Assembly (NCBI GenBank): GCA_032622095.1
Contig: CP136066.1
Location: 117,139,319 to 117,203,318 of the forward strand
From: Siphonodentalium dalli
Taxonomy: Eukaryota; Mollusca; Scaphopoda; Gadilida; Siphonodentaliidae
Direction: 5' to 3'
DNA: 64,000 bases
The position numbers and the translations under genes were made by a program. Numbering within the stretch: position 1 is the first letter of the stretch; every line of letters starts with the position of its first letter. This document shows positions 33,891 to 56,397 of this stretch, piece after piece. The notes under the pieces were generated by a model. That model saw nothing but the letters and a program-made list of their open reading frames with translations. It was not told the DNA's origin and searched no databases.

Positions 33891-35310
33891 TATACCAGTT
33901 GTATTATGTAAATGGCATAGGCTACAGTCATTATCTGGTTTAAAATGTCAGATACACAAGACAATATTCGGCCCAGAAATCTTTCAATAAATTTTATGTA
34001 TAGAACCGTCACAGCCATGATTGGCTTGAAATAGAACCATAACACACACACGTGTTGATTACGAGGCTACTGTTCCAAGTTATCAACCGCTATCGGGATA
34101 TTTTCTCAGCTATTTTACAGAAGAATAACACGTGTATATTTACACTCAGTGTTCGTGTTCAGAATGCGTTTCATATTTTATACGCCACCAAAAACAAAGG
34201 AATTGGGTTTACGTGGCTTGATTTTCAGTGATAACATGTTGATATTTACGCGTTAACTCGCTAATTCCGAGTTAATTGTGATCTAGAGTTCACATTTCTA
34301 TAATACGGCACTTCTGCAGCTTCTGTTCATTCGGGAAAGTATATACATTCAAGATATCTATAATTATGCGTGATTTTGTCCCGAAAATGATAATTTTTAA
34401 TCACAAGGAACAGTCACAAATCAGTCAAAAACCATCACAATACCGGCGATAGAACGGCTTCCGATGTAACAGTTCCTACACAGTGGACCACTGTATACTA
34501 TTGAAAGAAAAAGCTGCACTGGTAGCCATGTTGGCATGCACTGATAGCCATGTTGGCATGCACTGATAGTCCGTTGTGGCATTTTGTTTTAATCGCCACC
34601 CAGTTTCGTTTGATTTTCACGTATTTTCAACTGATATATATACACCAGTATTTTCGATTTGCATGTGCTGCAGATTCATTCCGCCGCCAGGATTTCAACA
34701 AACTTTTTACAAGTTATGCCCCGGAATGGCGTAAACGCACCAGAAAACCGATATTGGGAAAGGTTGGCCTACTCACTATGAGTTGGTGCACCCTATTTGT
34801 GTTTTGCTTTACTCACATTGCCCCCAGTTGGCATCTATACATGCATCGCAAGACGACCCACCCATCCACCAGGTAAATAAATACCTAATTGGGTTTATAA
34901 ATATGTCCAAAATGATTTTATTTCAACAATTTTCGGTCATTTCGTGATTGTGATTCCTCGAAAAGGACAAAAACACTGATAGGCCTGTATACATGTGACG
35001 CTGATAATTCTGCCGCTGTATGCGCTGATATAGGCTGTGAGCCCGTTGGACACTGCATGAACAGTGTCAGCACCAACCAATTTATATTTGGTACCATTAA
35101 ATTGTCACTTCCATGGAGTAACATCATGATAAATATTGCTGCATGCACCCCCTTAAAAAGCATACTACATTGTCTCCTACGTAATAACCTCGCATCACAC
35201 GTGCAGACCTGTCATACATCATCTTCATGTTGGTCGTTTGTCGGGTACACCTACATACAACTGCTAAACACATTTAACTTTCCGAGCAAGATCTCACAAT
35301 AGCTCTCACC
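33891..35310. other. Non-coding stretch upstream of the secreted cysteine-rich gene
   Basis: Contains a dispersed repeat (34365-34445, the inverse of 24683-24760) and a 14-bp tandem (gccatgttggcatg) near 34526-34560. A 108-codon frame at 34550-34876 has no domain. A possible TATA-like tttataaatat lies near 34894. The in-frame TAA at 35275-35277 closes the frame upstream of the start codon at 35311. I cannot define the promoter. Confidence 0.35.
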
Positions 35311-35368
35311 ATGGATTACGCAGGGGTGTTTGTCTTACTGGTGGTCTCGTCGGTCTTCACGTCTGAAG
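35311..35368 (+). CDS. Exon 1 of the 12-cysteine secreted protein gene: signal peptide
   Basis: The start context is caccATGg and an in-frame TAA lies 36 bp upstream. The exon encodes 19 full codons plus one base and is typical of a signal peptide exon: short polar start, eight-residue hydrophobic core, then SSVFTSE as the cleavage region. Donor is GAAG|GTACTG. A phase-1 intron right after the signal peptide is the usual arrangement for genes built by exon shuffling. Confidence 0.7.
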
Positions 35369-38300
35369 GTACTGTACTAGTATTGTAGAGACCTAGCTGT
35401 TCCAGTAATTTAATTTTAAATAATGATTAGAGTGAATCGAATATTTATCGCGCAGGTGTGTTGTGAATATTGTATTGTGTTATTATTGTCTTTTGCTGTC
35501 CGTTATTACGAATACGGTTTTGGATTTTCACAAATACATATCAATGTATAGTGATACGTTCCCGGTCGTTTCTCAGCTCCTCAATGAGGGAGATGACTCT
35601 GAGATTATGTCTTTAAATTGTGATCGCCATGTGGCCTTAATTTTTACATATTAGTGGCAATCAAATCATTCGTCATGAAACTCGAGGATCTTGCGAAACT
35701 CAAAGCGCTATAAAGCTATGACATGATAACAACATAATTATATATAAGAGTACAAAATATAAACACGGCACGCATAACCACAATCCCCTTACTGCGAGTG
35801 GCAAGCACGATTGTCTCACAAACGGACTCGTAGTCGTCAATAATCTGCTAAAAGTTTATGGACCGTGCGAAAAAAACAATATTACAATGTATCTTATTGT
35901 CCATTGAATTTTCTTTAAAGTATAGTTCGATAGTATATCAAACGAAGTGAGTCGATATTTCGTGCCAAAAACTAGCAAAATATACTGAAATTTGGGAGTA
36001 AAACGGGGCCGCCTAATATCGTCAATAATTCTAAAAATAGTCAACTCAGACAAAATATGCCCCAGTGTATGTTATAGGGCATACCATTCCCTATGGGCGG
36101 CCGTTGGATCGGAAATTACATGAAATAAAAGTTAATGGTGGTTTGTTTAAACAATTATATGCACCTCACATTCAATATAAGTCCATTCCGTTTTAATAGC
36201 AATCTTTTTCAAACCAATTGGTGTCCATTTTCAAACCAATAGGAGACAATTCAATTATAATATATATTGTTTCATAATCAATGTTGACCGATGCAGAATT
36301 AATGTTCTATTTCAATTTAATGTTATTAATTTTTCAACCAATATCTAATAAAAAAAAACAATTAGTACAGCTATCGCATATTCAATATATGTGTTTTCTG
36401 TATCTATAACCATATTTTTCTAATCAATATAGAATCCCCAAGTCAACGATGTTCATTTTCAAACCAATAGACCTTGTCATTTTTATATTTAATAGATATC
36501 AATTATCATCAACGCATATCTAACAGCAAAATCAATTACCTATTTCCGGTAATATTCAATGATCGCAGCTGACATTTTAATAAATACTGTTTACAAACCA
36601 TTACTCTATTCTCGAATTAATGCTAGGGGTGCCACCAGGGACGTTGAATATACTTGGTTCATGTGACGTAATGTATACTCGTGATGGGATCCCCAGATTT
36701 ACTTAGTCTATTTATATATTGCTGACGTCACGTGAACCGAAGTCCTCCACATAATCTATATATAATCTATGGTTCCTCCAACCGCAGGGAGTTTGATATT
36801 GAATGAGTCTTCCACCAACCTGACACTTGCGAACTTTACTTTACTATCTGCAAGATATGGGTTCCAACAACAACAACAACAATTTTTGAAATGCTGCTTC
36901 AGTTATCAGAATCGATGAATTGCCCAAAAATAATGCGAATCACTGTCAACCTTAGTATAAAATTGCCCGAAACGTTTAATTATTCAAAATTTTTTTTGCC
37001 TTATTATCAACACAAAACAACTTGATTTTAGAGTTATCCATCTTCATCCGCAATTTGGTCCGAAACCGTCAGCTCGTCGAATTTTTACCAGGCCACTAAT
37101 AGGTCTCGGTGGTGAAAAATAATAGATTTCAAAACTCGATATCTGATAACTCTTTGCTTTGAGTTGGTTCCTCGACTCGAATCAAATAAATAGTAATTGA
37201 AGGGCGTTTAATCGGATTATGCATTAGTAATAAATGCCATTTACTGTAGCAATCAGCTGTTTAGATATAGGTTACGATTCACAAAGAAATTACAAATTAA
37301 TAAACGCTCTTTATTGTGGACGTCGGTGCATGTTGGAGTTGATGAAGCCTGCATATATAAATATATGTTAATATTCACACCTCGTAATCTATCGTCGGTC
37401 ATTCGGTCGGAAATTACATGAAATAAAAGTTAATGGTGTTTTTTGAAAACAAGTACATGCATCGCACATTCAATATTCGTCTATCCCGTTTTAATACCAA
37501 TCTATTTCAAACCAATAGTCTCCATTTCAAACCAATAGTCGTTCTTGGATTCAATAAGAGACAATTCCGTTTTAATAGATATAGATTAATAATCAATGTT
37601 GACCGATGCAGAATTAATGTTCTAGTTTAATTTAATAGTATTCATTGTTCAACTAATATCTAATAACAAACAATTAGTACAGCTATCGCATATTCAATAA
37701 ACGTACATTATTATTTATTATTCGTCGAATTTGTCTTAAATGTACCCTGTATACAGTGTATACTATACACCACTTTAACATATTTTTACAAACGCTCTGA
37801 TTATATACGTCATGTTTACGGACTAATCACCTCTATATATTTAAGTGGCATTAAATTTGATTTGCATAGTCTTGTTTAATATGGAAGGTTCCAGAACGTT
37901 GGATAATTAGTGATTATTCAACATAATATATGCAACAAATTAATGAATTTGAGCCTTGAATTAGTGCAAAATATACTCATGTGCTATATGAACGATACAA
38001 ACAACATGGTAATTATTGATATTGAATTTATGATTCGAGTCATAAATTCATTTTCATTATAATTACCATGTTGTTTAGATCGTTAATATATCACATGAGT
38101 GTATTTTGCACTAACACATGACTCAAATTCATTCATTTGCTGCATATATTATGTTGAGTATAATAGATGGTCCCATAAATGGCCGGATTTCGTGTACAGT
38201 ACCCCTTTAAAGACTTTCTCTTCTATTCGTTAATTTTAGTCTCGTGAAATAATTATAATAAGCTTCAGATGCATATTTCCAATAAGTTTTGTTTTGTCCT

Positions 38301-41300
38301 ATTTTCAGCGATGATAATCAAGAACAATTGCAAGGGCTGTACAATAAAATGCCAGAACGCCCACTGCATCGAAACTTGCACAGACTTGTGCCCAAGTTAG
38401 TATCATCTATATATTTAAAACGTAGTAAGATATTTCTGTCTGTCCGTAAGTATGGATTTTGTTCTCCCAGACTGCTGGTCTGATTTCAACCAAGTTTGGT
38501 GTGGTGAATCGGGGTACCCTGACGGATGTTATAAAGGCGTTAGTTTTTTCAAACATTTTGATTTAAAAAAATATAATTAAATAAATAAAAAAACGAAAAA
38601 ATAAGCTCACTATGGGCCTATTTCATCACCATGTGTACGCTCTTTATATGTGCATCACTGTGGCCCGCGCCATTCAACTGAATAACTGGTAGAAGCAGGG
38701 GGGGTCAGGCGCTGATTTATTATTTCTGCCCTCTGGTTACCCACCACCCCCTAATTTTCATTTTTTTTCCGATTCTGGGATAGGTACCCACCCCTTCAAA
38801 CTGCTTCAAATGACTATTTCACTTAGTTGTCCTGATCTTATCTGATCTATGTTCTGTAAAATATTTATATAAGCATTCATACTTTTTATTTACCAATAAG
38901 GCTGTAACGTTTCAAAGCAATTATTTAATAAATGTGGGCCGTAGATTGTACTGACGGATTCACATTTGAAAACCAAGATGGCTGTTGGCGACCATGTTTG
39001 TTTTTAACAGATTTTCGGGGAAAATTGGAGTCTCTCCATCTTGAGGTCAACCCGAAGATCCATATCAAGTTTGGTGACGACTGGGTGAGAAATGTGACCT
39101 GTAAAATGTGCTAAAGGATTTAGTCATACAAAGAGTAAAATCCAAGATGGCCCCTGGCAGCCATGTTTTTAATAGAATTCGGGAAATTCGAGAGGTGACA
39201 CAGAGGATTCATATGAAGTTTGTTGATGATCGGATGAGGGATAAGCTATGTAGGGTGTGCTAAAGGATTGAGTGACGCAAAGAGTAAAATCCAAGATGGC
39301 TGCCGGTGGCCATGTTTTTCATCGAAAATCGTTCAATTTGACAGCTTAATCCAGCGGTGATCCCAAACCCGTGTACTGCGAATAACATTGAAATCGGTTA
39401 AAGGTACTCAATCCGAACAGAGGGTCGCCGTCTCAACAGATTCCAACAACAACAATACGATCAGAGGGTCCTATATTACTATTTCTTTGGCTTTGGGGGT
39501 AAACAATATTTGATTCGAGTCGAGGAACCCATCAAACAAAGCTCAGAGTTATTAGATATTGATTTTTGAAATTTGTTATTTACTCGAGATGAGTACTAAT
39601 AATTGCCTTCAACTGCCGTAATCTGCTCGGGTTGTGTACACCAAAATCTATTCAAACAGACAAGGATGGATAACTCTTAAATCAAGTGGTAATAATAACG
39701 TAATATTGACTGAGTTCTGGGCCAGAAAGTATTCCCGATAATGAAAAATAATAGATTTCTAAAATCGATATCTAACAAATCTGAGCTTTGATGGGTGACT
39801 TCCTCGACTCGAATCAAATATTTTTGACCCCCGAAGCCATTGAAATAGTAATTGAGAGGAGTTTTATCGGATTGAGTACATTTAAAGTTTGTTTTAACAC
39901 CTTTATGTTTTATTTTATTATGGTTTTTTGAATAGTCTATTTTTATTTGTAGAGTTTACATTTATTTGAAGAATCTATATTGTGTTATGTTTTCATTTAT
40001 ATCAGGTTGAATAAATGATTTTTAATATAATTATTTAGAATATTTAAACCTGAGCCTTTCCATGTCAACGTGCATTGATAGATCCTTGATGAAAACATTT
40101 AGCAAGCTGACCTTTTTATTACCCTTTGGTGTCATCCCTCATTATTAACTGATGGTGAACTCAAACCCCCTACCAAGAGTTAAGTTCACACCTATTCCAT
40201 AATAGAAGCATTCTTAAAACCTTTTGTTGCATTATTTTGAAGAAAAATACCCACCCACCCTCGCCTAGTGTTCGGAAAAAAATAGCAGATTATGATTATT
40301 TACAATCCGCACACAAGGATTCGTCGAAAGAGTGGGCCCAAGTTAGCAATTTCGTGTATAAATAAGGTGAATCATACATCCGGGAATGTGAGAAATCCGA
40401 GAGTCACAATGCAAAAAGACTACGGGCTCACCACCTCACATACTTAAAACCTAAAAACAAAACTTTTAAAAGCCGTTCATTTGGTACAAATTAAAATAGA
40501 ATATAAACTTCCAACATCAAACTGAAAGTAGAGAGGGGAGTATTTTACTGAAATTAACCATTACATTTTTGACGATGTTTAAGCAAACCGACAAAAGCAC
40601 CACACGGAGAAGCTTGTCGATTTCATCGTGTACATTTCATTCATAAAATGTCATCATGTCGATTTCACCAAAACTCGACGAACAACGTTATCATGTAGCT
40701 TTCCCCAATGACCGAATTCGCGATAACCTGAATGTATGTTCCGCTTTGTTCGTAATTATGTGTTCCTTCTCCATTCATGAAGTTAGAAGGATATCTATAT
40801 AAATATATATGAATTATCAGATGCATGTATACTATGTAATATTTTTATAATTTAATTTTTTAAACGCGATATATCATAACGTTTGAATTCATCACGAATT
40901 TCGATAACAGTATTCTCTCCCGCCCTGACAGAGTGATTGAGATTTTCTCAGTGCACGCGCGTTTTATATTTTAGGCCACTCCAATGAAAATCTTAAGACT
41001 GTCGTTAATATGTCATATTTTTCAATAAAGGGTAAACCACCACTACGAATCAATTTGTAATTCAATATGCATGTACGCTCTTTATGGATGTGTTTTCACT
41101 GTGGCCCGCGCCATCCAATATAATAGTCCACTATGGGCTTATATCAGAACCAAATAAGTCCAATATGAACCAATGTCAATATTTAGGTTCAATATGAACC
41201 TATTTGCCCGAGGATGTATTGAAGTAGCATAATAAAATGATCAAAATATATAAAAGAGTAGGATACATCTGTTATGTGCGCGAAGCGCACTCAGAGCCAC

Positions 41301-44300
41301 ATAAGCCCCCAGCGCACAGAGGGGACATAGGCCCCTTTGTGAAGGAGCCGCAAAGGAGCCACAGCCCCCTCCGACGCTGAATAAAGCCTCCAGAAGGGAG
41401 CCTGTTTCAGCTAGTTCGCTATATTTTACATATTATGGGATATGGATTATAGGATATCCTATATTCTGATATTCAATCGAACATCCCATGCCACATGATA
41501 TCAACTATCATTAGATAGCTCATGGCGAACCCCGATTACACATTGTTTGTAAATAATCCTTGGAGTATTTCCTGGTAATAACCCATACTGCCCAGAATGT
41601 ACACACCGAGCCTATCATAATCCTTATTTATTAACCATTTTCATTATAATTTGTATTATATTCATTATCTAGGTGGGACCCATTCTACCGCTCATTTGAC
41701 TGGATCTCGATCACCCCACTGGGTTCACTCTAAAATATGGACATGTGGCTCTTTATTATGTGTGAATATGTGTGTGTACTATGTGTATATGCTACATGTC
41801 GGATCATTATGAAATTTGTCATGGCTGTTGACATTGACATGTAGATGGGAACGAGTTATTTTGGGGTCATTCGGCAAGAAAACATGCCCAGCCAAAGATT
41901 ATTGTTGTTGAATGTTGTTGTTCGTCAGGTCCAGCACATCTTCTGAACGGGCTGAATGTCACAATCGTGATAAATGTGACCGAGTGACGCAATGAAACAT
42001 TAACAACCCCGCATATATGTCCGTATATAAGCGATTACGACACAAATATATGACTGCGAACTTGGGTGACATAAATTACACAGCCATCAACCCTCTTGCT
42101 GCTAATTAAAATATAAATGACGTTGCTCACCGCTGAATTTCCCATGTTACTACTAATCCAGTCAAAATACGACAAATATGGGATCAACCTATAGACAAGA
42201 TTTTTGTACATAATTTCTTTCATTCTTAAAGTGTGCAGGGGCTGCTTCCTGACCATATATCAAAAGTTCGTTTCGAGATCTGTGTGCAAAGTATGGAAAT
42301 TGCCAATTCGCAGGGACCATTGTTGTTTTCAGTCGCATTTGTTTAAGGGTATAGAGGAAATTAAATATTTGACAACAAGAAGTGAATTTAAAGACCCAGG
42401 ACAAGTTATATACAAAACGAAAGGGTGTGATTTGTTTTATACATTCGATTATGTGTGGTTGTGAGTATGTTATCATCAAGGTCAAACAGGTCAAAATGCC
42501 ACAGAGTACAAAACGAAAAGCAGTTTCCAGAACATGTACAACTGGTCCAGGAGATATTGGTCGATCTCTGTACAACAGGAATCATGTTGACCCCACCCGT
42601 GTTCTTCCTAAGGGTATCTTCTCGCTTCTCGCTTACTAACAAGAAAATGGTAGCCGCATAATCTCCAAACACGATGGCGTCCATCATGTCGGCCATTTTG
42701 CTTGATATACACCGCGACTGTTTGATCGCCAGTATAGTACAGAAAGTACCATATAGGCGGTCGTGCATTCCGCGCGATTCGTCAAACTCATGCACCTATG
42801 GGAGGCCCTTTTCACATTTATTATTTATTTACGCTTAAGCGCAAATATCAAGCGGAAATAACCTCTATCATTTGCGCTTTTGCGCTTAAGCGTAAATCAT
42901 TTGCGCTTAAGCGCAAATAAAAATTAATATTCATTGATTTCCCCCTGAATTAATTTTAAATGGCACAGGCCTAAACACATCACTCAAGTCTTTCTAGTCC
43001 CACCATATGAGGGAAGCAATTCCCCAGGAACCCCTAGATCCATTTTATGACATGGAAATGGTGTAGATCTGTGCAGGATATGTCTCATTTATAAAATATA
43101 CTTGATCTCTGTGATGGAGACACACATTCTTGGGGACAGGGATGCTGATAATATGAAAATAGGGTTTTTCCCCCTATTTCAAGTCAATAAGTACACCATA
43201 CGAAGGAAGCAAGCCCCCCGGTAACCCCTAATTCCCTTTTATGGCCATGGAAATGGTATATATCTGTGCAGGAGATATCCCTTTAATAAAACATACTAGA
43301 GCTATGGGAGTGAGACACCAGTGAGACGCTAATGTATACAAAACTCGAGGAGATTGACTGAAAATACAGAAACAGAATGTGAACAAAAATATAAAGAAAT
43401 TCTCCTTCATGCAACGCATGCAACGCGTGATTAAATAACTGTAACTCCCTGCCAGATATGATAGCAGAGGCAGTTGATCGATCTGAATTTAAAACTTATC
43501 TGGATTCGTTCTTCTACAGCAAGAAGTATCAATTTGAAAACTCTCTGATTATCAGACTATCTGCTATTTGTTACATTGTCACTAAATATTTCGTTATTGT
43601 TACCGGTATATATACGCTTGTCACAAATGACTCGATGCTAATCACGCAATGTCTCATTTGAACCAGTGTGTGTTATCGTTACGAATACTCCATCCAAAAT
43701 TATGCGGGTATGGGGTAACTGATGTAAGTATTTCCCAAACATTTTAGTTGAGGAAAATTCTTCCAAATCTAAGATGGCGTCCAACATGACAAAACAAAAT
43801 TGAAAATGGAGAATATGAAGCAAGGTTACACACTGATCATATAGGAGAATAATTTTCTGCTTCGTGTTATAACAGTTGGCCCGATATCACATTTTGGCAA
43901 AAATGTTAATGTCGATATAAAATCATCGCCCAGAAACTGTGAGGGGAATACCCATTTAGTATTCATCGCCCACGGTGACTAGCTCGTAATGCCTGTCAAA
44001 ATCAAATGTGGGCGATGAATACTAAATGGGTATTCCCCTCACAGTTTCTTGTTCAATTCAACATATTTACATGCATGATTTTGTTATTTTATGGTGATTG
44101 ATGTAGTGCCTTCCAGAGCATATTGCTATATGGGTTATGGCTAGTTTGGTAGCAATAACATTTGGTGGGGTTTGTGTGATTTTTGTTCGTTTTAGCTAAT
44201 GTTGGAGCAGGGTTTTTGCAAAGGGGTATTTTCTTCATTAGCACGCCAGCGTGTATACTGTGCTTGAAAATATAAAATCCACTGGTGTTATGGGGGGTTA

Positions 44301-47300
44301 TGGGGAATTAGGTCGATGTAAAAGTAAAAATGGGCGCTTTAAAAGCTGTAGTCTTACCAGAATGCTCAATAAAATAGTCCGACACAGATTAGCACATGTG
44401 CTGATATTGATAATAACCACACCGTTTGGAAAGCATGCGATCGTGTGGTAATCAAAGATGGATTTCGACGAAATTTGATACTTAGGATACTTTTGTCCGG
44501 GGAGTGTTTTGGATTGGTCAAGTCGTGACCCCGACCTGACCTTGACGTTCAAAATGGTCAATCAAGGTCAAATCGGGTATAACGGAAGGGATTTCGACGA
44601 AATTTTATACCTAGGGGTACCTTTGTCTGGGGAGTGTTTTGGACTGGTCAAATCGTAACCCACAACTGACCTTGACCTTCAAAATGGTCAATTCAAGGTC
44701 AAATCGGGTAAAACGGATGGATTTCGACTAAATTTGATACCTAGGGTTACTTTTCTCCGGGGAGTGTTTTGGACGGGTCAAATCATGACCCCGACCTGAC
44801 CTTGACTTTCAAAATAGTCAATTCAAGGTCAAATCGCGCCTTTCGCCGGAAAGGAGATGGGAAACAGCTTGGACGAAGTCGGGCCCACCAGCTAATGTAA
44901 TAAAAACGAGACAGCTTAATTGAAGAATGTAATGTATAACACGAGAAACGGGAAAACGGGAAGTATCCAGCAGGATCATCTTTCTTGTAAATAGGAATGA
45001 CGTTTGCAAACTTCCATGCTGCAGGGAATTTCGAAGTGTTAATTGTATACATTAGGCCAAATTATAGAATTCCATGGTCCTATGTAGGTATTATAAATAG
45101 ATGATTTGAGAAGCTTTATTGTTTTAGGATATTGTAGAAAAGCTAATCTGGCCGTGTCAAATTGAGTTATAGCGATTGGATATCTCGCAGCGCAAAGGCA
45201 CCTTGACAATCGTTATGTTTGAAGTGTCAAAAATAAAAGCAGCAAACGCCACCTGCTGGACAAAAAAGCATCAAAATTACTACTGTCACAGTCAAAACTC
45301 AGTGTAGCAACACAGTGCAGTGTACTAGCTAGGTTAACCCTCACAAACAATGCTCTTGCCCTTGAGTTCAATTTCATCAGCATATAAGATCCCACTGCTG
45401 CCACCCAATGTATAAGCACGGCCATTCAATGTATGAACAGAATCATTCACCATTTTGATTATGTTTTTTATTGTTTTTAAACAATTCCTACATATATATT
45501 AATAGCTGTGTGCAAGAATTCATTTAGTATAGAAAGGGTTAAACGGCTTCTGTCATTTTTTAACTTGACTTCTTTTTCGGTAGTATTTTTCAAAAATAAT
45601 TTGAAATTAAACCTTCCCACCATCAAACCTATGAAACCATATGGATACACCATTGTTCATGTATGCATGTGTATAAGCACCTTGACATGTGTAATATATG
45701 TCTGTCTCTATATGTAAGTTATATGTGTGTGTTAACACATGCATGTAATGGTGTATGTATTAGAGTGCACCTACACATGTATGAATGGAAGGGTGTTTTC
45801 ACATTTATTCCTTATTTGTGCTTAAGCACAACTATTTGGGTTTAAGCGCAGATATTTGTCCTTGAGCGTAAATATTTGTGCTTATCGCAAATAAAAATTC
45901 ATATGCATTGATCCCCCCTTAATTAATTTTAAATGGCACAGTGCCTAAACACACCACTCAAGTCTATGTAGACCCACCATATGAGTGAAGCAATCCCCCC
46001 CAGTAACTCATAATTCCCTTTTTTGAACATGGAAATGGTAAAGATCTAAATGATATGTCTGTTATAAAATATATTTTTGGGGGCAGGGATGCTGATATTA
46101 GATAGGGTTCCCCCTTCTTTCAAGTCAATAAGTACACCATATGAGAAAAGCAAGCCCCCTCTCATTAACCCCTAATTACCTTTTTATGGCCATGGAAGTG
46201 GTATTATATCTGTGCATGAAATGTCCCTTTAATAAAATATACAAGCGCGCTGGGGGTAAGGCACCAATTACTGGGACACCAGGAGCAGAGATGGTGATAT
46301 GCATATGGAAATATGTTTTTCTTCAAATTTCGAGTTTATAGTGGACTACTACTATGAGATGAACTCAATCATTCATAATTGGAGGGGAGTAAGGGGGTGT
46401 CAAACGCTTAAATCATATACGCGTAACCTCAAATAAATTGTTAGATGTATGTTTGCACTTGAGCGCAAATAATTTCTGCTTAAGCGCAAATATCTGCGCT
46501 TAAGTTTAAGCGCAAATCAATAATAAATGTGAAAAGGGCCTCCCATATGTATGTTCTTGGGTTTTCAGTGTATGGTATTAGGCTTCAGACAAAAAAAATC
46601 TCTCTGTATTTTGAAGGGCTTGAGACCTACTGCACCATAACCCATTAGAATATGTGATTGTTGTAATCAAACACATGTGTAATATGGTATGCATTACCCC
46701 TGCATTGAATTTTTTTCAGGAGCTGATCTTAATGCTCATGGGGAATTGATGGTATTTCCACATCAGCTGGTGTTGATGCTCATCCTTATGGGAGGCGCTT
46801 TTCATATAAATCATTTATGTGTGCTAAAACACAAATATTTGTGCTTAAGCGTAAATGATTTGCGCTTAAGCTCGAGTCATTTGTGCTTAAGTGCAAATGA
46901 CAGAGGTTATTTGCACTCAAGCACAAATATTTACATTTAAGCGCAAATATTTGCATTTAAGCGCACATAAGGAATAAATGTGAAAACGGCCTCCCATACA
47001 TCCCCCGATGTTATGTAAGGGCATATATGCCAAACATTGACTGTTTTTGTATAATTGGACAGACTTCACCTCTAATGTATCCTGTCATTTATTTGGAAAG
47101 GGGCGTGGACCTTGACCTGGGACTTTTATTTATTTGTTTTTGAATGAAGTTCATCTCACAATTTATGCGAGTGCACCTATCGTCCATATACAAAAATTTC
47201 CTCTCTGCATTTTCAAGGGCTTGAGACCTTCAATTAATCATATTACTAGTAATAGATTAATTGGCTGCATTATAAAATTTTGTTATATTAATATTTCCTC

Positions 47301-50300
47301 TATGCGTTTTCTTGAGACTAGGAGGTATATAGTTATTATATGATCGGTCTATCGGTTTGCTTCATACCATTATAATACACCATACGCATGCTGGTGAGCT
47401 GATACACCATTCTAATATGGTGTAATATACGATATGCGAGATCGGTCTACTATACACCATTATGATATATGATACATGTGTCTGTCTCTGCCTATACACA
47501 ATTATAATATATGATATGCGGTGTCGGTCTACTATACACCATTATAATATATGATAAGTCTGTCGGTCTACTGCACTGTTAGTCCAAGTCTTCTTGTACT
47601 AAAACCAGCTAAGATATTGGGATGGCGATGCTAAACGCCAGCATCGCCATCCCAATATCTTAGCTGGTTTTAGGACAAGAAGACTTGGACTACTGCACTG
47701 TCTGCACACCATTATAATATACACCATTATAATATACAATATGTGGGTCGGTCTAATACACTTCATTATAATATATATTACAAATTATAGTAGACTGACA
47801 TGCATATCGTATATTATAGTGATGTAGAGTAGACCGACACAAGTGTTGTATATTATGATGGTGAATAGTAGACTGACATGTGCACCGTACCACTATAATC
47901 AAAGTAACTGACTTGAAAAATGGAGTGCTAACCCGGTAATGACGACAGTATTACTGGTTGTATACAGTATCAACAGAGGTATCAAAATAACCACAGTAGT
48001 GGAGTTATGGTACCGTTCGCTTATGAAACCGCAGTTTATTAGGGATCGTCACACCGGCAAAAAGTTAAAGAAATCAATATGTCCATGCGGATCTTGTTAA
48101 AGATATGGTAAGCATTGCGGTGGATTTCACTGTTAAGATAGTCACATCCATTAAACCGCCATTAACAGAAATAATTTATTTTTGACAAATTTTGTTCTTA
48201 TGCCAATCTTAAATATCAAGTAAATTGCGGCATGTTATTGTCATGTTAACTGGTTCAGTGCTGAAAGCCCATATTTGGACCCTGTGTAAGAGTGCTGGAA
48301 GCCCAGATATGGGCTTTGGCAATGACACTGTCTTGTTTAGTCAACTCTTGTTTAGTTTAATCATTTAAATAGCGTTTGTCAGGTAATATTTTAGAAATAT
48401 TGTTACATATATAATTAAATTGGGACATTGTGAAGTTTGAATGGATGCCGACCAATAAAATTGTCAGAAAAGGTACTTATATCGCGAAAAGTTTGAGAAT
48501 AATTACAAATGTTTTGCCCTAAGGGCGGCCGACAACCAAGCTCATAACCATAACCTAATCAGACATCCAGGCTCATATCGATAACCTACATTGACAAACA
48601 GACAACCAGGCTCATGACCATAGCCTAATGCATGAGACATCCAGGCTCATAACCATTGCCTAATGAGACATCCAGACTCATAATCATTGCCCAAATGAGA
48701 CATCCAGACCCATAACCATAGTCTAATGAGACATCAAGGCTCATAACCATAGCCTAATGGCTAATGAGACATCCAGGCCCATTGGCATAGCCATAGCCTA
48801 ATGAGACATCCACTCATAACCATAGCCTATTCAAGCAGTCCTTCCCACGAGCAAAACACAGAAGACGGGTGAAGACGGGTGTAATATTGCTCCCATACTA
48901 TATAATTGTAAGTTGGGTTTTTCTCAAACAAAAAGTCATTGTGGAATAGACCTATGTCTAGTTACACTTTAATATGCCATAGTTGAACTGAGATGGTAAA
49001 GGATCTAAATAAACCTTAAAATAGTTCAATATTGAACCAACAATTACAGTCTCCATTAGTATTTTGAGAAAAGGGACGGGTGCGAATTTTAGCACCCGTG
49101 AATTGATAATTACGAGTGCGTACGGGTGCGAGAGCAATCACTCCCGTCTCCTGGGAAGGACTGCTATTGAGACATTCAAGCTCATAACCATAGCCCAGTG
49201 AGACATCCAGGCTCATAACATAATCACAAATGTATATATATGGGGGTCAAATTTGATAAAAGAGTGCAAATTATCAACTGCGAGCATAAAATTCAATAAT
49301 ATATATGTTGAAATATATATACGCATTTTATTACGTGTATGTAGGATATTTAGCAGCGAACCAGTTAATAATTAATCTGTGTTATATGTGAACAAACGCC
49401 ATGTTACGTAAACAAACAGTATGTAAAGAGTATGCCATAAGCAAAACTCAACACGGAGGAGACCCCCCCCCCCCCATTAATTAAACTTTTGTTAGAAATG
49501 CCACCGGGTTGTATACATCATACCGGTATACATGTAGCTATCGATAATCTTCACATCTAAAGATTTCAGTGTTTAATGGGTCACCATGAATCACTCTTCT
49601 AAATGAACACCACGATGTTGAGTGTTTTGCATATCGGTCACTATTTATGAGCTATATATAAACAAACACTTGGCTCACAGAAAGTGTTTTGTTGATAATA
49701 ACACATTCATATGATCATATATCCTATAGGCTTCCAGTTTCCACAGATATATAAGGAGAATCACTGCATTTTATTTTCATGCTGGCGAATCCGCATTGCA
49801 TGCATCGTGGTGCAACAGTGGTACATGCTGTGTTGAAGCGGTAACATTATCAGGGTGTTGGAGGTCACCGCGGTATAATACTGCAGTATTGCCGGGGTGA
49901 CACCACGTTAGTGGTTGTCAACTACTTTTAGTATACATGTAGCTGGGCATCATATATATATATATCATTCTATTGTGCATAATATACCGGCACACGTATC
50001 ATATATTATAATGGTGTAGACTATAATAGACCAGGTGACGATTGCCTGTGCTTCAGCTGATTGGTTGAGCCATGTGATGATGCGGCCTGAAAACAGGCTG
50101 CAGTGAAATGATTATGACTTCCCCCTGGGTGCAGGCCAGAATCTTGCGCTATCCCTCAGAATTGATAATGAGTAAGTGTTGAGCACATATTAATCGGTAA
50201 ATTAATTAAAATAAGCTAACAATTCACAATTTTCTTCTGAAAATTTACATTTTAATATTTCGCGACATAATTTTCACCAATAAAAACATATTTGTTGCAT

Positions 50301-53300
50301 TGCAGAGTTAACCGTATCTGTAGATATGTTATGATTCAAATGAATGTTGTTGAGCATATTTCAAGCAATTTAAATGAAATTTTTCTTCACACGATTATGT
50401 GACGATAACTAAAATTTACAATTTTTAGGATTTTAACCTGCCTCATTTTGATCAGCAATTGTTGTGCACGCTGATTGAACGTCTATAATCACTCGATAGG
50501 TCAAATTATGCCTTGACCATGCCAGAATCTGGCTAGAAATTGGACAAACAATATTTTTTTGGTGTTGACAAAATTAACATGGGAATCTCCATAGACAACG
50601 GTAAAATTGCGATAAAAACTAAAATAATGCGAAATGAAAGTCGTCATTCGCTAGCCTGGTGCAGAATAATATACGAGTCATGATCTATAAGATATGTCGT
50701 TTTCATTCGATTAATTAGTCTCGTAATTAACGGATCAATGACATGAAAATATTGTAGCTATCGAACAACTTGATCTGATCACAAACTGCGAACTGGAATG
50801 GGCATCAATAACAACATCAAATAAAAAAACCCTATACATCGGATCTTTTTATATGGCCCACAGAAACCTAGAAGACATCAAACAGCTAGAGGAATCTCTC
50901 AATACCATACAAGATAGAAGGTATAAAGACATCATATTTAAACGGCGACTTCAACTGCCCAAATATCGACTGGGATAAACTTTGTGTAACAACAGGGGCA
51001 CAGGATACTGAGATCCAACAAGCATTACTTGACCTGTGTATCCACAAAGGTCTGACTCAAACCCACAGACAGCCCACAAGGGAAAACAACCTGCTCGATA
51101 TAGTTCTAACAAACAACACCTCATTAATAAAGAACTCAAACAACATACCTGGAATATCGGACCACGACATCATAGTCACTGACTGCCAGATAACACCGTA
51201 TGCAAAACCACAAAAACAACAAAAGAAACGCTTCGCCTACAACCGGGCTGACTGGACTAACCTATCACTAGATCTTAGGTTCCTCTCTGAAGAAATTAGA
51301 ACAATACCTGGAAATCCCAAAATCAACACCATTTGGGAGACCTTCAGAGATGGTATAAAGGGCCTGATAGATAAACATATACCATCGGCACCAAAGAGAA
51401 GAGACAACCACGTGCCATGGCTAAACAAGCGCCTTATCCGGATACTGAAGAAAAAATGGAGACTCTTCAAAAAAGCAAAGAGGACCAACCAATGGGGAGA
51501 GTATAAGGCACACCAGAAAACATGTAGGCGAGAAATGAGAAGAGCAGAGTGGACCCATGTAAACAGAGTCATTGAAGAGGGGCTGGCAAATAAGAACACA
51601 AAGCCATTCTGGAATTATCTGAAATCCAGGAAACGGGACAACATCGGGATAGCGCCAATGAAACACCAAGGAAACCTCACAAATGACCCTGTCGCGAAAG
51701 CAGAACTCTTAAACACCCAGTTCCGCTCTGTATTCACCAAGAAGACAAATACCACCAAAGCACCACTCCCATCTGACAAACCAACCATAGGAGACCTGAA
51801 CATATCAGTTGAAGGTGTGGAAAAGCTACTTATATAGGGACTTAAAACCCGGCAAAGCTAGCGGACCAGATGCCCTTCCAAATCAAGTCCTGAAAAAATG
51901 TGCCAATTCCATCGCTCCAGGCCTGACCTATATTTTCCACAAATCGATCACCACAGGAAAACTACCACAAGACTGGAGGGACGCAAACGTTGCTCCGGTA
52001 TTTAAGAAGGGGGACGTCCACATACCGGAAAACTACCGACCAGTTTCCTTAACAACAGTATGCTGCAAAAATACTGGAGCATATTATATGCCGTCACCTG
52101 CTGAACCATCTTGACAAACATGAAGTCCTGACCAAATTAAATCATGGATTCAGGAAAGGCTACTCATGCGTAACACAGCTACTAACAACATCAGATGACC
52201 TGCTCCAATCCTTCAACAAAGACATCCAAACAGATATAGCAATACTTGACTTCTCAAAAGCCTTTGACACTGTACCGCACAACAAACTACTACAGAAAGT
52301 TCAAAACTATGGAATTAAAGGAAATATATACACCTGGCTCTCATCATTCCTAACCAAAAGACGAATGCGAGTAGTTGTTGAAGGAAGCTACTCATCATAT
52401 GTCCCAGTTGATTCAGGAGTCCCACAAGTCACAGTATTAGGACCACTCCTGTTCCTGATACATATAAACGACCTACCAACATGTGTAGATTCCCAGATGA
52501 GACTGTTCGCAGATGACTGCCTGCTATACAGAAACATCACCTCACAGAAAGACCACCACATACTCCAAAAAGATCTAAAGAAGCTTGAAGACTGGGCTGA
52601 AAACTGGGGTATGCGTTTCAACTCCAAAAAATGTAACATCATGAGCACCAAAAACAAATCATCATACATGTACCAACTGGGAGAACACATACTAGAGACA
52701 ACAGCTGAGACCCCATACCTGGGACTGACCTTTACCAACGACCTGACATGGTCAGTCCATATTAGGAAGACAACAAAGAAAGCAAACTGTGCTTTAGGCC
52801 TCCTAAGACGTAACATCAGACATGCTCCAGAGAAATGTAAAAAGACAGCTTACATCGCTACAGTAAGATCGGCGCTCGAATATGGAGCAGTGGTATGGGA
52901 CCCCCACTTAAAGAAAGACATTGACAACCTTGAAAAAGTACAGCGAAGGAGCGCGAGATTCATAAAGAATAATTATAGTCGCCAAGGAACATCAGTCACC
53001 ACCATGCTTGAGGAACTAGATCTAAAACCTCTAGACGAGCGACGTAGAGAACAGCGTCTCATCCAGTTCCATAATATAGTTGAGGGGATGGTGCCAGCAT
53101 TAAGTGCAAACAACTACCTAACGCCTAAGAAATCAGGCAGGAAGATCACAGCCAAAAAATTGGAACCAACTGGAAGACCGGATCGTGTGCAACAGTGATC
53201 CAGAGTTATTCTTACGGGCACTCCGCAACGATGGAATCACTGAACCTGAGGACACAGCACCATCAGAGTCCTCGACGGAACCAACATCATCCTCCACCCA

Positions 53301-56004
53301 GTGCGCCTAAAACCAGAATTGGTTACTGCACTGAACCCACTACAGATACAGATACAGATTGACAATCAAAACATTCCACCGCAGACGAATTTCACTGCCG
53401 AAAGTTTATAATTGTCAACAACTCACCTTTCACATATAGAATGCGAAAGAAATCTACAGTCATTAAAGATCCATAATATAAATACTCATATATACGTAAT
53501 TAAAACATGAATTACAGACAAAAGGATGAGATTTAACGATGAAATGCAATAGAATTTCCCCACTTCAGTTGCACGGAAACCCCCCCTCAAATTCAAGCTG
53601 CCTGTGATTCTAAAAATAGAGCAACGTTACGTAGGGGATGCCGATAAAGGCAGATCGGTGATTGGTCGGAACTTTTGCGCAACACATTTCGCGTTTTCGT
53701 GGGGTGTGTATTCGCTGGATGTCTTATAGTTGCAGTATATAACTACATGTATTATGACTCGTTAATTGCGTTCGATGTTTAGGTATGAACAATGGCTGGG
53801 TCATGCACACTTGAAGATTATATGGCGGGAACACAATTTTTTATTTGCATTTAGAAGCTTTCTGGTTTGGTGAATGAAAAACCTGCAGTAATAAGGCGTC
53901 ATTCTCACAAAAAAAAGTGCTGAAGGGTACACAGGGTTTGAACGTGTGCTGAAGGGTACACAGGGTTTGTGATCGGCACGAACACCATTACATAAATTGT
54001 GTTTATGAAAGTCTGGCGCCCAATAGCAGTTTGTTTTCAGTACATTTTAATATTCATTGGAACGTAAACAATTATTCTCTGACAGAAATCATGGCAGATA
54101 CGAAGACTGAATGTCCTTTATAATGACATTTCAAAACCTGTGTACCCTTCAGCACATTTTGAAAATCCTATCTACTCTTCAGCACTTTTTTTTTGGTGAG
54201 AGTGACCCCTTCAGCAGTAATAAGCCGTAGTTTTTTGTAATAATTTGAAGGATTAGTTGTTTTAACGGAATTCTGAGGCGGTGTATTCATGTAACCAATA
54301 TATTTTATATTATAATTTATATTTATGGCTAATAATATGATCTTGGTGGCGTTACCATTTCTGACTATGGTTTTCTTGTTATTGTCTGGTCGTCGCTTCT
54401 GAAAGCGCGTGTATTTGTGTATCTCTGATATGATTAAACACCGTGGTCTCATCTAAGGTTTGTCGCGTGTGTGTGTATGGTCCAGATAAGTTGTTCGTAT
54501 CTAACTACTGGCGCAGGGTCTATTTTGGTGAACCAATATCGTGTTATCAATTTTAAACAACATAACGTATTTACGAACTAATAGAATTAACATTCCCCAA
54601 AACACGGCACCTCAAACGTGCTTATACAGTGGTAACATATAGTATCACATATGCAGCATAATGTTTCCACAAACACTCGTAAATGATTCCTAGAATGCAT
54701 TTAGTGCACCAAATGGGGAACGCACAGGAACTATTTGCAGGGTTCGATTTTCTGGCTCTCTACGGAGAATCAGATACAGAACCAAAGCAGATCAGATTTG
54801 TTATCCCCTCAGCAGCCCTCGTACAAATTTAGAACAATTCTGGTTCAATCTGGAATTCGGTTCTTTATTTTGGTTCTTCGTGAAGATTAGTGCCAACTCA
54901 TGTATGCTTGGTTGTTAATTTGGTTCTTTATTTTGGTTTTAGGCGAAGAACAAAAACATGTATGACGGGTTCTTCGTTTCATTCTCCTATTTGGGACAAA
55001 CTTGTGAACCAGTTTTGGTTCCTCGGGGATCGAACCAATTGTTTTTATTGTGTATTAGCATAACACCCACGGGAGTAATATATAAATAAGATTGTAACAC
55101 CTTTATAGACTTGCTGCATGTGATTGTATTCCACGAGCTTCCGATCCTTAACATTCTAGGGGTCTTTTTTGAGTGTTTGGCACATCATAATTATACTTAA
55201 CCATAAATCATTGTGTTCTCTAACATTTTGTTTTTTTCTCAGGGGATTGTTTATCATGTTCTGTGATGTGCATTAATGGCGTTTGCAAAGAAAACTGTGG
55301 AAGTTGCGCAGGTTAGTCTCTAAACACGCGCACATTAAGTAATTGGATTGACAACTCTTCACCTATATTATAACGTCAATTTTAATATATCCTCGTAGAT
55401 TGTAAAGTCATTGCCCAACGAGTCACAAAGTAAATGCAGGAAATTAATTCAGAAGTTAAAATGTTTGACCCTTAAATTCTAGAATGTTCAAGGTTGGTTA
55501 CATGTTAGTACGGGGACAGGTAAACCAGGAAAATGCTGACAAGATCTTCTGTATAAATACAAATTATTCCCGGGCAGATCCTCTCGACAACTATACGTTG
55601 AATTGATGTGAAATCTTTCCATTGGAGAACAAGCTGATATACCTCGTTGAGTGGTAATTTACTTCGATCCTCTTCCTTTGGTTCGTCTGATGGTATGATT
55701 GTAATGAGATAACACGCGTTTATAGTGAATTCGTGATGTATGCATATACAAAAACTGTATATATACCATGCAGGATGATGAATATATATAAATATTCATA
55801 TACTTTTCAGTTGCCGGTACGAGCCCGAACATGACTAGTCCTGGGTGGATCAAGACACAGCAGCAGACGCGTCAGTTAGAGAAGTATATGTCAGACTGGC
55901 AAAAGAAGTTCTCAGTTGGTATGGCTGGATGGCAGAAAACATTCGGAAATGGGATGAGGTTCCTAAATCAGTTTTTACGCAGAATGACTTCTGTATTCGG
56001 CTAA
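35311..56004 (+). CDS. Four-exon gene for a 135-aa secreted 12-cysteine protein with a cationic amphipathic tail
   Basis: Exons are 35311-35368, 38309-38395, 55243-55311 and 55811-56004 (58+87+69+194 = 408 nt, exactly 136 codons with the stop). All introns are GT-AG and phase 1. Residues 1-20 form a signal peptide with hydrophobic core GVFVLLVV. Exon 2 gives Cys 27, 30, 34, 39, 43, 47; exon 3 gives Cys 51, 54, 58, 63, 67, 70; both follow C-x2-C-x3-C-x4-C-x3-C-x2/3-C. Residues 73-135 are cysteine-free and strongly basic (about +7), contain a sequon NMT at 78-80, a twice-repeated W-Q-K-x-F-x-x-G-M block at 101-109 and 112-120, an RR pair at 128-129, and end Phe-Gly. The even cysteine number suggests disulfides. 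The tail resembles antimicrobial or peptide-hormone precursors in general character only; I recognise no family. The model is inferred from splice signals and phase, without transcript support. Intron 2 (16.8 kb) is full of mobile elements. Confidence 0.68.
36100..36395 (+). repeat. Dispersed ~300-bp repeat in intron 1, copy A
   Basis: gaaattacatgaaataaaag, caaaccaatagg, atcaatgttgaccgatgcag and attagtacagctatcgcat occur in the same order as at 37405-37705. Rich in AACCAAT words. Non-coding. Confidence 0.75.
37020..37230. repeat. Partial copy of the 477-bp MITE
   Basis: Contains gatttcaaaactcgatatct, cctcgactcgaatcaaat and a degraded right end (aatcggattatgcatt), aligning with the right half of 32953-33429. 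The left terminus is missing. Confidence 0.65.
37405..37705 (+). repeat. Dispersed ~300-bp repeat in intron 1, copy B
   Basis: Direct-orientation partner of 36100-36395, about 85% similar by eye, with a small extra block (gtcgttcttggattcaataa). Confidence 0.75.
37912..38165. repeat. ~250-bp imperfect palindrome in intron 1
   Basis: Left arm words attcaacataatatatgcaa, gtgcaaaatatactcatgtg and acaacatggtaattat each have their complement in the right arm (atatattatgttgagtat, cacatgagtgtattttgcac, ataattaccatgttgt). The centre is near 38038. The right end abuts gtgtacagtacccctttaa at 38192, so it probably belongs to the TTAAAGGGG element family. Confidence 0.75.
38309..38395 (+). CDS. Exon 2 of the 12-cysteine secreted protein gene: first six-Cys module
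   Basis: Acceptor gtcctattttcag|CG, donor CCAA|GTTAGT, phase 1 at both ends, 87 nt. It encodes a split Ala, 28 residues and the first base of an Arg codon. The cysteines follow C-x2-C-x3-C-x4-C-x3-C-x3-C. Because it is symmetrical, the exon can be skipped or duplicated without a frameshift. It is a diverged paralogue of exon 3. Confidence 0.72.
38930..39350 (+). repeat. Three diverged monomers of the 158-bp satellite family in intron 2
   Basis: aaccaagatggctgttggcg, aaatccaagatggcccctgg and aaatccaagatggctgccgg recur about 150-180 bp apart, each followed by ccatgttttt. More diverged than the array at the start of the window, so probably an older dispersed copy. Confidence 0.75.
39398..39885. 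mobile_element. Second full copy of the TTAAAGGTACTCAATCCG MITE (488 bp)
   Basis: The left end TTAAAGGTACTCAATCCG and right end cggattgagtacatttaa (one mismatch) bound a copy about 95% similar to 32953-33429, with TTAA at both sides. Confidence 0.9.
39886..41800. other. Intronic stretch, no gene recognised
   Basis: AT-rich. The segment at about 41065-41145 (tgtacgctctttat and cactgtggcccgcgccat) repeats a segment at about 38625-38680. The block 41270-41405 is locally rich in agccccc, with the palindrome gcgcgaagcgc. No open frame with coding character. Confidence 0.4.
41805..41890 (-). repeat. Single satellite monomer
   Basis: gatcattatgaaatttgtca, then catgtagatgggaacgag and ttttggggtcattcggc, match the left satellite arm closely, then stop at aaaacatg. 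A lone copy inside intron 2. Confidence 0.85.
41891..42798. other. Intronic stretch with overlapping chance frames
   Basis: Several open frames of 60-130 codons overlap on both strands at 42035-42795. None shows a domain, consistent codon character or splice signals. Not called. Confidence 0.35.
42799..43330 (+). mobile_element. CTTAAG-palindrome MITE family, right-truncated copy
   Basis: Starts TGGGAGGCCCTTTTCACAT preceded by TA, followed by several ttgcgcttaagcgcaaat units, then a body (aattttaaatggcacag, atggaaatggt, gtacaccata) shared with 45786-46545. The right terminal repeat is absent. Confidence 0.75.
43932..44049. repeat. Perfect 42-bp inverted repeat with a 34-nt loop
   Basis: The arms 43932-43973 and 44008-44049 are exact complements over 42 of 42 bases (starting agaaactgtgaggggaatac). 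No copy elsewhere in the window. Perfect pairing implies either a very young foldback element or a maintained hairpin. If intron 2 is transcribed, this would be a strong RNA hairpin, longer and more perfect than usual animal microRNA precursors. Confidence 0.9.
44461..44838 (+). repeat. ~130-bp tandem repeat, three units, each with paired TCAAGGTCA motifs
   Basis: Units start gatttcgac at 44461, 44590 and 44720. Each contains TGACCTTGA and, about 17 bp on, TCAAGGTCA (44537-44545 and 44562-44570 in unit 1): an inverted pair conserved in all three. TCAAGGTCA is the extended half-site bound by monomeric nuclear receptors such as the ERR and SF-1 groups. Whether it acts here is unknown. Confidence 0.85.
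44890..45055 (-). pseudogene. Short reverse transcriptase fragment (CR1-like)
   Basis: The minus strand reads NTSKFPAAWKFANVIPIYKK followed by DDPA, the conserved region of non-LTR reverse transcriptases just before the RPISLL motif. The frame then loses similarity. About 50 codons remain. Confidence 0.65.
45056..45785. other. Intronic stretch, no gene recognised
   Basis: Short TG/CA-rich segments near 45650-45790. No repeat pair or coding signal recognised. Confidence 0.3.
45786..46545. mobile_element. CTTAAG-palindrome MITE family, long copy (~760 bp)
   Basis: The right end atgtgaaaagggcctccca is the complement of the family start TGGGAGGCCCTTTTCACAT; the left end is diverged (tggaagggtgttttcacat). 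Blocks of gcttaagcgcaaat occur near both ends. The middle has two related sub-blocks (accatatgagtgaagcaa and accatatgagaaaagcaa). Confidence 0.75.
46789..46996. mobile_element. CTTAAG-palindrome MITE family, short complete copy (208 bp)
   Basis: TGGGAGGCGCTTTTCATAT at the left and atgtgaaaacggcctccca at the right, with TA on both sides. The interior is almost entirely variants of ttgtgcttaagcgcaaat, a self-complementary word, so the whole element is a chain of small hairpins. No coding capacity. Confidence 0.8.
47345..47900. repeat. Minisatellite of ~50-bp units with an inverted tail
   Basis: tcggtctactatacaccatt followed by ataatatatgatatg recurs between 47345 and 47760. From about 47790 the complement (atagtagactgacatg, then tatcgtatattatag) recurs, so the array folds on itself. 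A related single unit lies at 49970-50030. It is interrupted by the 113-bp MITE at 47580. Confidence 0.75.
47580..47692. mobile_element. 113-bp hairpin MITE with 9-bp target-site duplication (Mutator-like)
   Basis: Ends TAGTCCAAGTCTTCTTGT and the complement; about 50 of 53 stem positions pair around an ~8-nt loop (aaacgcc). CTGCACTGT flanks it on both sides (47571-47579 and 47693-47701). A 9-bp duplication is the usual signature of Mutator-like elements. Inserted into the minisatellite. Confidence 0.85.
48530..49235 (+). repeat. 31-bp minisatellite (agacatccaggctcataacc) interrupted by an insertion
   Basis: About ten units of agacatccaggctcataacc plus atagcctaatg occupy 48530-48832; two more follow at 49167-49235. 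The gap is a separate inverted-repeat element. Confidence 0.85.
48833..49166. mobile_element. ~330-bp element with AGCAGTCCTTCCCA ends inserted in the minisatellite
   Basis: agcagtccttccca at 48834 pairs with tgggaaggactgct at about 49152-49165. The inner sequences gaagacgggtg and ctcccgtctcc also partly pair. Flanks (ctattca, ctattgag) suggest a ~5-bp duplication, CTATT, but the boundary is uncertain. Confidence 0.65.
49236..50760. other. Intronic stretch, no gene recognised
   Basis: Holds a poly-C tract (about 49466-49479), a (TA)n tract near 49955-49970 and one unit of the 47345 minisatellite. No coding signal. Confidence 0.35.
50761..53360 (+). pseudogene. CR1/Jockey-type LINE pseudogene (endonuclease C-terminal part plus reverse transcriptase)
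   Basis: Reading across frames: endonuclease end (GDFNCPNIDW, LLDIVLTN, SDHDIIVTD), linker, then the reverse transcriptase (GKASGPDALPNQ, YRPVSLTT, LDFSKAFDTVPH, GVPQVTVLGPLLF, LFADDCLLYR) and the usual tail ending CA-stop at about 53309. Damage: one-base insertion near 50941, in-frame TAG at 51835-51837 with frame change, one-base insertion near 52069, and loss of a segment near 53160. The 3' end is a short (ACAGAT)n tail at about 53341-53358. The glutamine-glycine of the VPQG motif is changed to QV. Same family as 25356-26960; sits in intron 2 in sense orientation. Confidence 0.9.
53361..53885. other. Intronic stretch, no gene recognised
   Basis: No repeat pair or open frame of note. Confidence 0.3.
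53886..54226. mobile_element. ~340-bp foldback element flanked by GCAGTAATAAG direct repeats
   Basis: The left arm (tctcacaaaaaaaagtgctg, then aagggtacacagggttt) and right arm (aaacctgtgtacccttcagc, then agcactttttttttggtgag) are inverted. The left arm contains gtgctgaagggtacacaggg twice. GCAGTAATAAG occurs at both outer edges in direct orientation and is likely to be the duplicated target. Confidence 0.7.
54228..54385 (-). repeat. Segment shared with 31219-31365
   Basis: gtaataatttgaaggatta and cttggtggcgttaccatttc match the first locus, with a ~20-bp insertion between them. The TSP1-like sequence that precedes it at 31.4 kb is absent here. Confidence 0.6.
54386..55242. other. Intronic stretch before exon 3
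   Basis: Contains repeated gttctttattttggttctt words at about 54858-54950. No exon seen. Confidence 0.35.
55243..55311 (+). CDS. Exon 3 of the 12-cysteine secreted protein gene: second six-Cys module
   Basis: Acceptor gtttttttctcag|GG, donor GCAG|GTTAGT, phase 1 at both ends, 69 nt. Cysteines follow C-x2-C-x3-C-x4-C-x3-C-x2-C, the same pattern as exon 2 with one residue fewer in the last loop. The shared spacing, length class and phase argue for exon duplication followed by strong divergence outside the cysteines. Confidence 0.72.
55811..56004 (+). CDS. Exon 4 of the 12-cysteine secreted protein gene: basic amphipathic tail and stop
   Basis: Acceptor catatacttttcag|TT joins in phase 1. 63 residues follow a split Val, to TAA at 56002-56004. 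The block W-Q-K-(K/T)-F-x-x-G-M occurs twice 11 residues apart, followed by FLNQFLRRMTSVFG. Hydrophobic residues (W, F, M, L) recur every three to four positions, so an amphipathic helix is likely. Terminal Phe-Gly could be converted to an amidated Phe, and RR could be a cleavage site. Nine Lys/Arg against two acidic residues. Confidence 0.72.
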
Positions 56005-56241: not shown

Positions 56242-56397
56242 ATTAAAATGCGAAATCACATTGTTAGTCGCCCAGAAGCATTGGGCCCAGAACAAATTAT
56301 CAGCAAGCTGTTTTTGGTGTCATTTTGTCCGGCAGTATCCAGCAGTATCTGGGGAAAACATATCCAAAATCCGCTTTGGGAAAAGTTCTCTAATAAA
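56242..56397 (+). terminator. Candidate polyadenylation signals for the 12-cysteine gene
   Basis: ATTAAA at 56242-56247 and AATAAA at 56392-56397 lie 240-390 bp after the stop codon. No other canonical signal is nearer. Without transcripts I cannot choose between them. Confidence 0.4.

Follow-up and report, generated by a model that had tools for sequence, protein, structure and literature searches.

A four-exon gene and its paralog in Siphonodentalium dalli point to an unrecognised, probably secreted protein with six-cysteine exons and an amphipathic tail

The window analysed here is a stretch of 64,000 nucleotides of the Siphonodentalium dalli genome (C6:117139319-117203318), and the genome searched comprises 2.23 Gb in nine contigs. 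The window carries on its plus strand what looks like a real gene of four exons for a small secreted protein, with the following features:

34559..35495, plus strand: 5' segment containing exon 1, with copies on contig C8; its first ~450 bases also match dispersed places (genome DNA search)
35311..35368, plus strand: exon 1, start codon in CACCATGG context and predicted signal peptide MDYAGVFVLLVVSSVFTSE; donor GAAG/GTACTG, phase 1
38309..38395, plus strand: exon 2, cysteine module 1, CX2CX3CX4CX3CX3C, homologous to paralog exon 2 at C6:58386884-58386801 (minus strand)
55243..55311, plus strand: exon 3, cysteine module 2, CX2CX3CX4CX3CX2C, with an NG turn; 69 nt, equal in length to paralog exon 3 at C6:58384276-58384208 (minus strand)
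55811..56004, plus strand: exon 4, cationic amphipathic, probably helical tail and stop codon (periodicity, helical moment, AlphaFold2)
56242..56247, plus strand: candidate polyadenylation signal ATTAAA, 238 nt past the stop (from the sequence)

The first-pass annotation had described four exons with matching phase-1 sites that add up to an exact open reading frame, and we reproduced this chain with identical coordinates, GT-AG introns throughout and exon lengths of 58, 87, 69 and 194 nt, giving 408 nt that encode 135 residues and a stop codon. Every junction lies in phase 1, which makes exons 2 and 3 symmetrical (1-1). The product begins with a hydrophobic N-terminus, continues with two six-cysteine modules and ends in a basic C-terminal tail. 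Intron 2 is 16.8 kb long and contains LINE remains with reverse transcriptase; arrays of 20-21-bp units with a palindromic CTTAAG core also lie inside it (window 42879-46969). Elsewhere in the window we noticed a GC-rich tandem array (16663-22645; 143-bp unit, ~42 copies, 92% matches) and two 164-bp tandem arrays (825-3208 and 4347-10533). The consensus units of the latter two read by eye as mutual reverse complements, suggesting that one satellite occurs here as an inverted pair.

A protein search of the genome revealed one sister gene, located ~59 Mb away on the same contig and on the minus strand. Its exons were read from the DNA; exon 1 is a candidate only, picked because it ranked first among three rows, of which two overlap, in a 27-kb scan:

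C6:58391909-58391849, minus strand: candidate exon 1 (61 nt)
C6:58386884-58386801, minus strand: exon 2 (84 nt)
C6:58384276-58384208, minus strand: exon 3 (69 nt)
C6:58378294-58378134, minus strand: exon 4 (161 nt)

Spliced, the paralog gives 375 nt encoding 124 residues, again with all junctions in phase 1, and all 12 of its cysteines align with those of the window protein; 8 of the 12 cysteine codons differ. Over 45 aligned codons of exons 2 and 3 (one window codon being omitted as a gap), 26 residues are identical and differences fall 16, 9 and 32 times at the first, second and third codon positions; dN is 0.335, and dS is not computable and was taken as saturated. Exons 2 and 3 are thus under constraint at the protein level, and this third-position bias, as a mark of purifying selection, argues that both genes are functional now or have been so for long. 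Downstream of the paralog, partial tandem copies of the 3' part of its last exon and UTR occur at C6:58375846-58377757 (minus strand), the nearest three ~450 bases apart; three of the copies keep an open frame ending LQSEMSRVFGGIRNTISY and could be alternative last exons.

Splicing of the paralog is recorded in the genome itself, as an intronless copy lies at C6:189490991-189491302 (minus strand), in which exons 2, 3 and 4, followed by the 3' UTR, are joined at the predicted splice sites. The copy is 98% identical to the paralog, with mismatches to the genomic exons at 1 of 88 positions in exon 2, 1 of 75 in exon 3 and 6 of 297 in exon 4 plus UTR. It shares the AATAAA signal with the paralog, placed 114 nt past the stop and followed by an A-run, and it is flanked by a 13-nt direct repeat, ATAATATACTGCA. 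By its structure it is a 5'-truncated retrocopy of LINE type, in other words a natural cDNA of the paralog, and it shows that transcripts of the paralog were made, spliced where predicted and polyadenylated. Moreover, inheritance of the retrocopy implies that germ-line cells or the early embryo contained the message of the paralog. The copy starts with a G, one base before exon 2, which fits the end of the candidate exon 1 and the end of the intron equally well and is therefore uninformative on exon 1 of the paralog. Presumably LINE machinery of some kind made the retrocopy. The window itself holds, at 11781-15566 on the plus strand, an uninterrupted LINE open reading frame of 1261 codons with endonuclease and reverse transcriptase (RVT_1, E 5.8e-38), in which a zf-RVT match lies below its cut-off.

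Three findings place exons 2-3-4 of the window gene in a gene family, namely that a paralog exists, that the differences are biased by codon position and that the paralog left a spliced retrocopy. Among the genome matches scored with protein and DNA queries, the window gene had no retrocopy of its own, and the evidence for its splicing is homology to the paralog rather than a transcript.

The 12 cysteines of the window protein form two modules, CKGCTIKCQNAHCIETCTDLC and CLSCSVMCINGVCKENCGSC. The earlier claim that the two share the same spacing holds except at the last gap, where module 1 has X3 and module 2 has X2; both modules of the paralog have X2 there. The spacing CX2CX3CX4CX3CX2C is palindromic about the NG turn, which is replaced by NA in window module 1. 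A search for the six-cysteine pattern found only the two modules in the 84 kb around the window gene, only two in the 50 kb around the paralog, and no occurrence in 20 mononucleotide shuffles of the window. Between the genes, 13 of 20 residues are identical in the second modules and 10 in the first, against 8 and 9 between the two modules of one gene, which suggests that the exon was duplicated before the gene was. The non-cysteine residues common to both modules of one gene are few (2 of 14 in the window protein, p 0.15; 3 of 14 in the paralog, p 0.066), so that the case for a common origin of the modules is made by their cysteine spacing, by exon phase and partly by the NG turn.

With a net charge of +1 or 0, the modules are almost neutral. 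We modelled the open frame of exon 3 with AlphaFold2 from the single sequence and obtained short strands flanking the NG turn (pLDDT 78.9, pTM 0.37), a model in which the pairing of the bonds is not visible. A Foldseek search of this model against the PDB returned 27 matches at E ≤10, the best at E 3.9 and none at E ≤0.001. Zinc fingers were among the top ranks, with probability <0.1; a zinc-binding reading of the CxxC pairs was rejected because the protein appears to be secreted.

The tail encoded by exon 4 contains, as the first-pass annotation had reported, two W-Q-K-x-F-x-x-G-M blocks and a terminal Phe-Gly-stop. By eye, this pair belongs to a run of four 9-mers in the window protein (QTRQLEKYM, WQKKFSVGM, WQKTFGNGM and FLNQFLRRM), and the paralog tail reads by eye as three blocks (QFQRFQREM, WMTRLQSEM and VFGGIRNTI). 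These blocks are mostly hydrophobic at i, i+4 and i+8, and the first block in each tail starts with Gln. A 33-nt internal duplication in exon 4, with 21 of 33 bases matching (reached by 1 of 60 shuffles), is suggestive only. When exon 4 and the 256 bases downstream were searched against the genome at the DNA level, the sole match among the best candidates scored was the query itself.

Both tails have helical periodicity together with a net positive charge. Measured across each entire tail, hydrophobicity has a best period of 3.62 (window protein) or 3.54 (paralog), values reached by 4 of 3000 shuffles each (4 and 5 of 3000, respectively, when Tyr is left out). In helical segments chosen by eye, the periods are 3.60 and 3.62, reached by none of 3000 shuffles each, with net charges of +6 for the window and +2 for the paralog. 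The whole tails carry +7 over 64 residues in the window protein and +2 over 52 in the paralog, which is thus weakly cationic. The maximal helical moment is 0.73 in the window tail (reached by 3 of 2000 shuffles) and 0.61 in the paralog tail, where the shuffle fraction of 0.051 is borderline. AlphaFold2, given exon 4 alone as a single sequence, placed one 50-residue helix at residues 14-63 of 64 (pLDDT 69.2, pTM 0.31). An argument for a free helix (period 3.6) over a heptad arrangement (3.5) held on the segments chosen by eye and failed on the whole paralog tail, whose period of 3.54 is compatible with a heptad coiled coil; our confidence in a membrane-binding helix was therefore lowered slightly, and that in self-assembly raised slightly.

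We also looked for known families. The whole window protein matched no Pfam-A family at E ≤10, BRICHOS included, and sequence searches of the PDB gave chance matches only (E ≥0.43) or none. In a two-row alignment searched against Pfam at the same threshold, the paralog row, which is a hybrid sequence, gave PF18781 at E 0.88. Among the literature matches listed, titles and the starts of abstracts described no protein with this arrangement. Marker profiles run against the genome gave no match for Chitin_bind_4 or Hemocyanin_M at E 0.001, nor for molluscan haemocyanin (PF14830) or Eryth_link_C; as no control genome gave a signal with any of these profiles, the first two negatives count against an arthropod but do not prove the point. 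Three protein queries of the genome gave 10, 11 and 4 matches at E ≤10 among the best candidates scored, and the family content seen with these and three DNA queries is two genes, one retrocopy, partial repeats of the terminal exon, exon-1 fragments on contig C8 and a dispersed repeat; beyond these pieces there were two weak protein matches, at E 0.54 and 3.92. The earlier statement that no known family has this arrangement is thus borne out as far as animal proteins are represented by Pfam models and PDB chains. Likewise, the broader description of an unrecognised protein, probably secreted, in which phase-1 six-cysteine exons are combined with a cationic amphipathic tail is supported by the exon chain, the Pfam result, the paralog and the tail periodicity.

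As for function, the reading that we favour, at a little under an even chance, is that the protein is secreted and stays uncleaved, with a head stabilised by disulfides and a C-terminal amphipathic helix that binds membranes or lipids, most likely at cell or microbial membranes. An old duplication of a phase-1 exon would have produced the two six-cysteine modules, which may fold as small disulfide-linked hairpins and make up a compact head in a secreted protein of ~115 residues after removal of the signal peptide. The last exon would add a cationic amphipathic alpha-helix of up to ~50 residues, lying along the surface of a membrane or lipid, and the uncleaved protein could then work at the membranes of cells or microbes, perhaps as a host-defence effector or as a surface-binding secreted factor. 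A more specific version can be proposed tentatively, namely an undescribed family of two-part secreted membrane effectors, in which tandem near-palindromic CX2CX3CX4CX3CX2C hairpin modules would anchor a membrane-binding helix of 9- to 11-residue blocks whose number varies between paralogs.

The same helix might instead serve lipid carriage or self-assembly, in an apolipoprotein-like, mucus, egg-coat or adhesive protein whose cysteine head cross-links or binds a ligand, a reading that we consider somewhat unlikely. The 9- to 11-residue blocks repeated in the tail, as seen by eye, are consistent with it, as is the presence of the paralog message in germ cells or the early embryo that the inherited retrocopy implies, and the weaker charge of the paralog tail, with its near-heptad whole-tail period of 3.54, leaves room for either role. 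On the contrary, the bulky Trp, Phe and Met of the window tail, together with its basic residues, lean towards membranes, the window period is 3.62, and the window protein has no match in Pfam.

Exon 1, likely but unproven, is the least certain part of the window gene, as it was read from sequence features only. The DNA search with the 5' segment gave at least 46 matches (40 of 179 candidates scored), consisting of the window itself, five C8 copies covering exon 1, one further C8 match corresponding to the upstream portion of one of those copies, and 39 matches within the first 448 bases. The C8 copies of the exon-1 segment sit near 89.74, 96.34, 96.51 and 96.53 Mb. When aligned over exon 1 (six rows, two of which are the same place), all five carry an in-frame TAA stop at the position of the window's Leu codon TTA; the ATG is lost in one and an 8-nt deletion is present in one. 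Similarity between the window and the C8 copies ends near 35495, a limit common to the three C8 stretches compared, and by eye three copies stay alike for some tens of bases past the point where the window diverges. The predicted signal peptide lacks a basic n-region, and hydropathy scans found a hydrophobic N-terminus in the candidate first exons of both genes. We scanned the 48.3 kb upstream of exon 2 for phase-1 first exons encoding a hydrophobic, signal-peptide-like stretch. With the donor cut-off set at 6 of 9, two candidates remained, exon 1 not among them; with the cut-off at 5 and stronger hydrophobicity required, three remained, of which exon 1 was the sole one inside the window.

It is conceivable, though unlikely, that exons 2 to 4 are real and that 35311-35368 is not their first exon, being a C8-related duplicated fragment that lies upstream by chance, or that such a fragment was captured and now supplies promoter and signal peptide; this would be compatible with the other readings, and the probabilities do not sum to one. 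The five C8 copies, all with a stop, the end of their similarity near 35495, the lack of resemblance between window exon 1 and the candidate exon 1 of the paralog, and the outcome at the stricter donor score all speak for it. On the other side, every other candidate of either scan sits in flanking sequence upstream of the window, at a distance of over 38 kb from exon 2, whereas exon 1 is only 2.9 kb away, has its start codon in CACCATGG context, matches phase 1 and keeps an open frame at the site where the C8 copies have a stop.

The first-pass annotation had proposed a precursor of a membrane-active or signalling peptide, possibly amidated, which we took as one that is cleaved and C-terminally amidated. 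The Phe-Gly-stop end of the window protein and the KK and RR pairs in its tail are in line with this, but the paralog terminates in NTISY, lacking a C-terminal Gly, and nowhere in its tail do two basic residues adjoin; the proposal finds no support at the family level. As the paralog tail is amphipathic but has neither a C-terminal Gly nor basic pairs, amphipathicity is, on this comparison, the feature kept between the paralogs and amidation is not; amidation and dibasic release would therefore be at best peculiar to the window copy, and we regard a cleaved precursor as improbable. A venom or mucus toxin component, with a disulfide-rich head and a cytolytic helix, is equally improbable, as only the architecture of cysteine-rich modules and amphipathic cationic tail speaks for it, against two genes found instead of an expanded family (best candidates scored) and no Pfam match for the window protein.

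Taken together, an exon chain read by eye has become a supported two-gene family, in which a natural cDNA of the sister gene proves splicing. The protein is also a small, defined target (~115 residues) for tests of membrane activity. A wide distribution of the family would bring the secreted peptides of animals an additional cysteine framework and a head-plus-helix arrangement; should the family be confined to its lineage, it would be one more orphan secreted gene.

Several known systems resemble parts of the membrane- or lipid-binding protein that we favour. Apolipoproteins and synucleins have amphipathic helix repeats of 11 residues, and the tail blocks described here, hydrophobic at i, i+4 and i+8, likewise recur by eye every 10-11 residues; the window protein differs in lacking a Pfam match and in the joining of the helix to a cysteine-rich head. 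Scorpine-type peptides and big defensins combine a membrane-seeking segment with a disulfide-rich module. The window protein may do the same, its tail being the presumed membrane-seeking segment, although the order of the segments and the cysteine pattern are different and the protein has no Pfam match. Among these, big defensins are treated in PMC7203481 (title and start of abstract). The nicomicins of polychaetes are antimicrobial peptides made from precursors with a BRICHOS domain (PMC6265681, title and start of abstract). Like these precursors, the window protein would have a signal sequence, an accompanying domain and a C-terminal peptide that may be membrane-active; unlike them, it has two short six-cysteine exon modules in place of BRICHOS and no cleavage site common to both paralogs. 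Cystine-stabilised beta-hairpin antimicrobial peptides (PMC13001179, title and start of abstract) differ from the window protein, which has six cysteines per module, two tandem modules that are nearly neutral and a long helix, but they may share with it the arrangement modelled for the exon-3 module, in which strands flank an NG turn with cysteines beside them.
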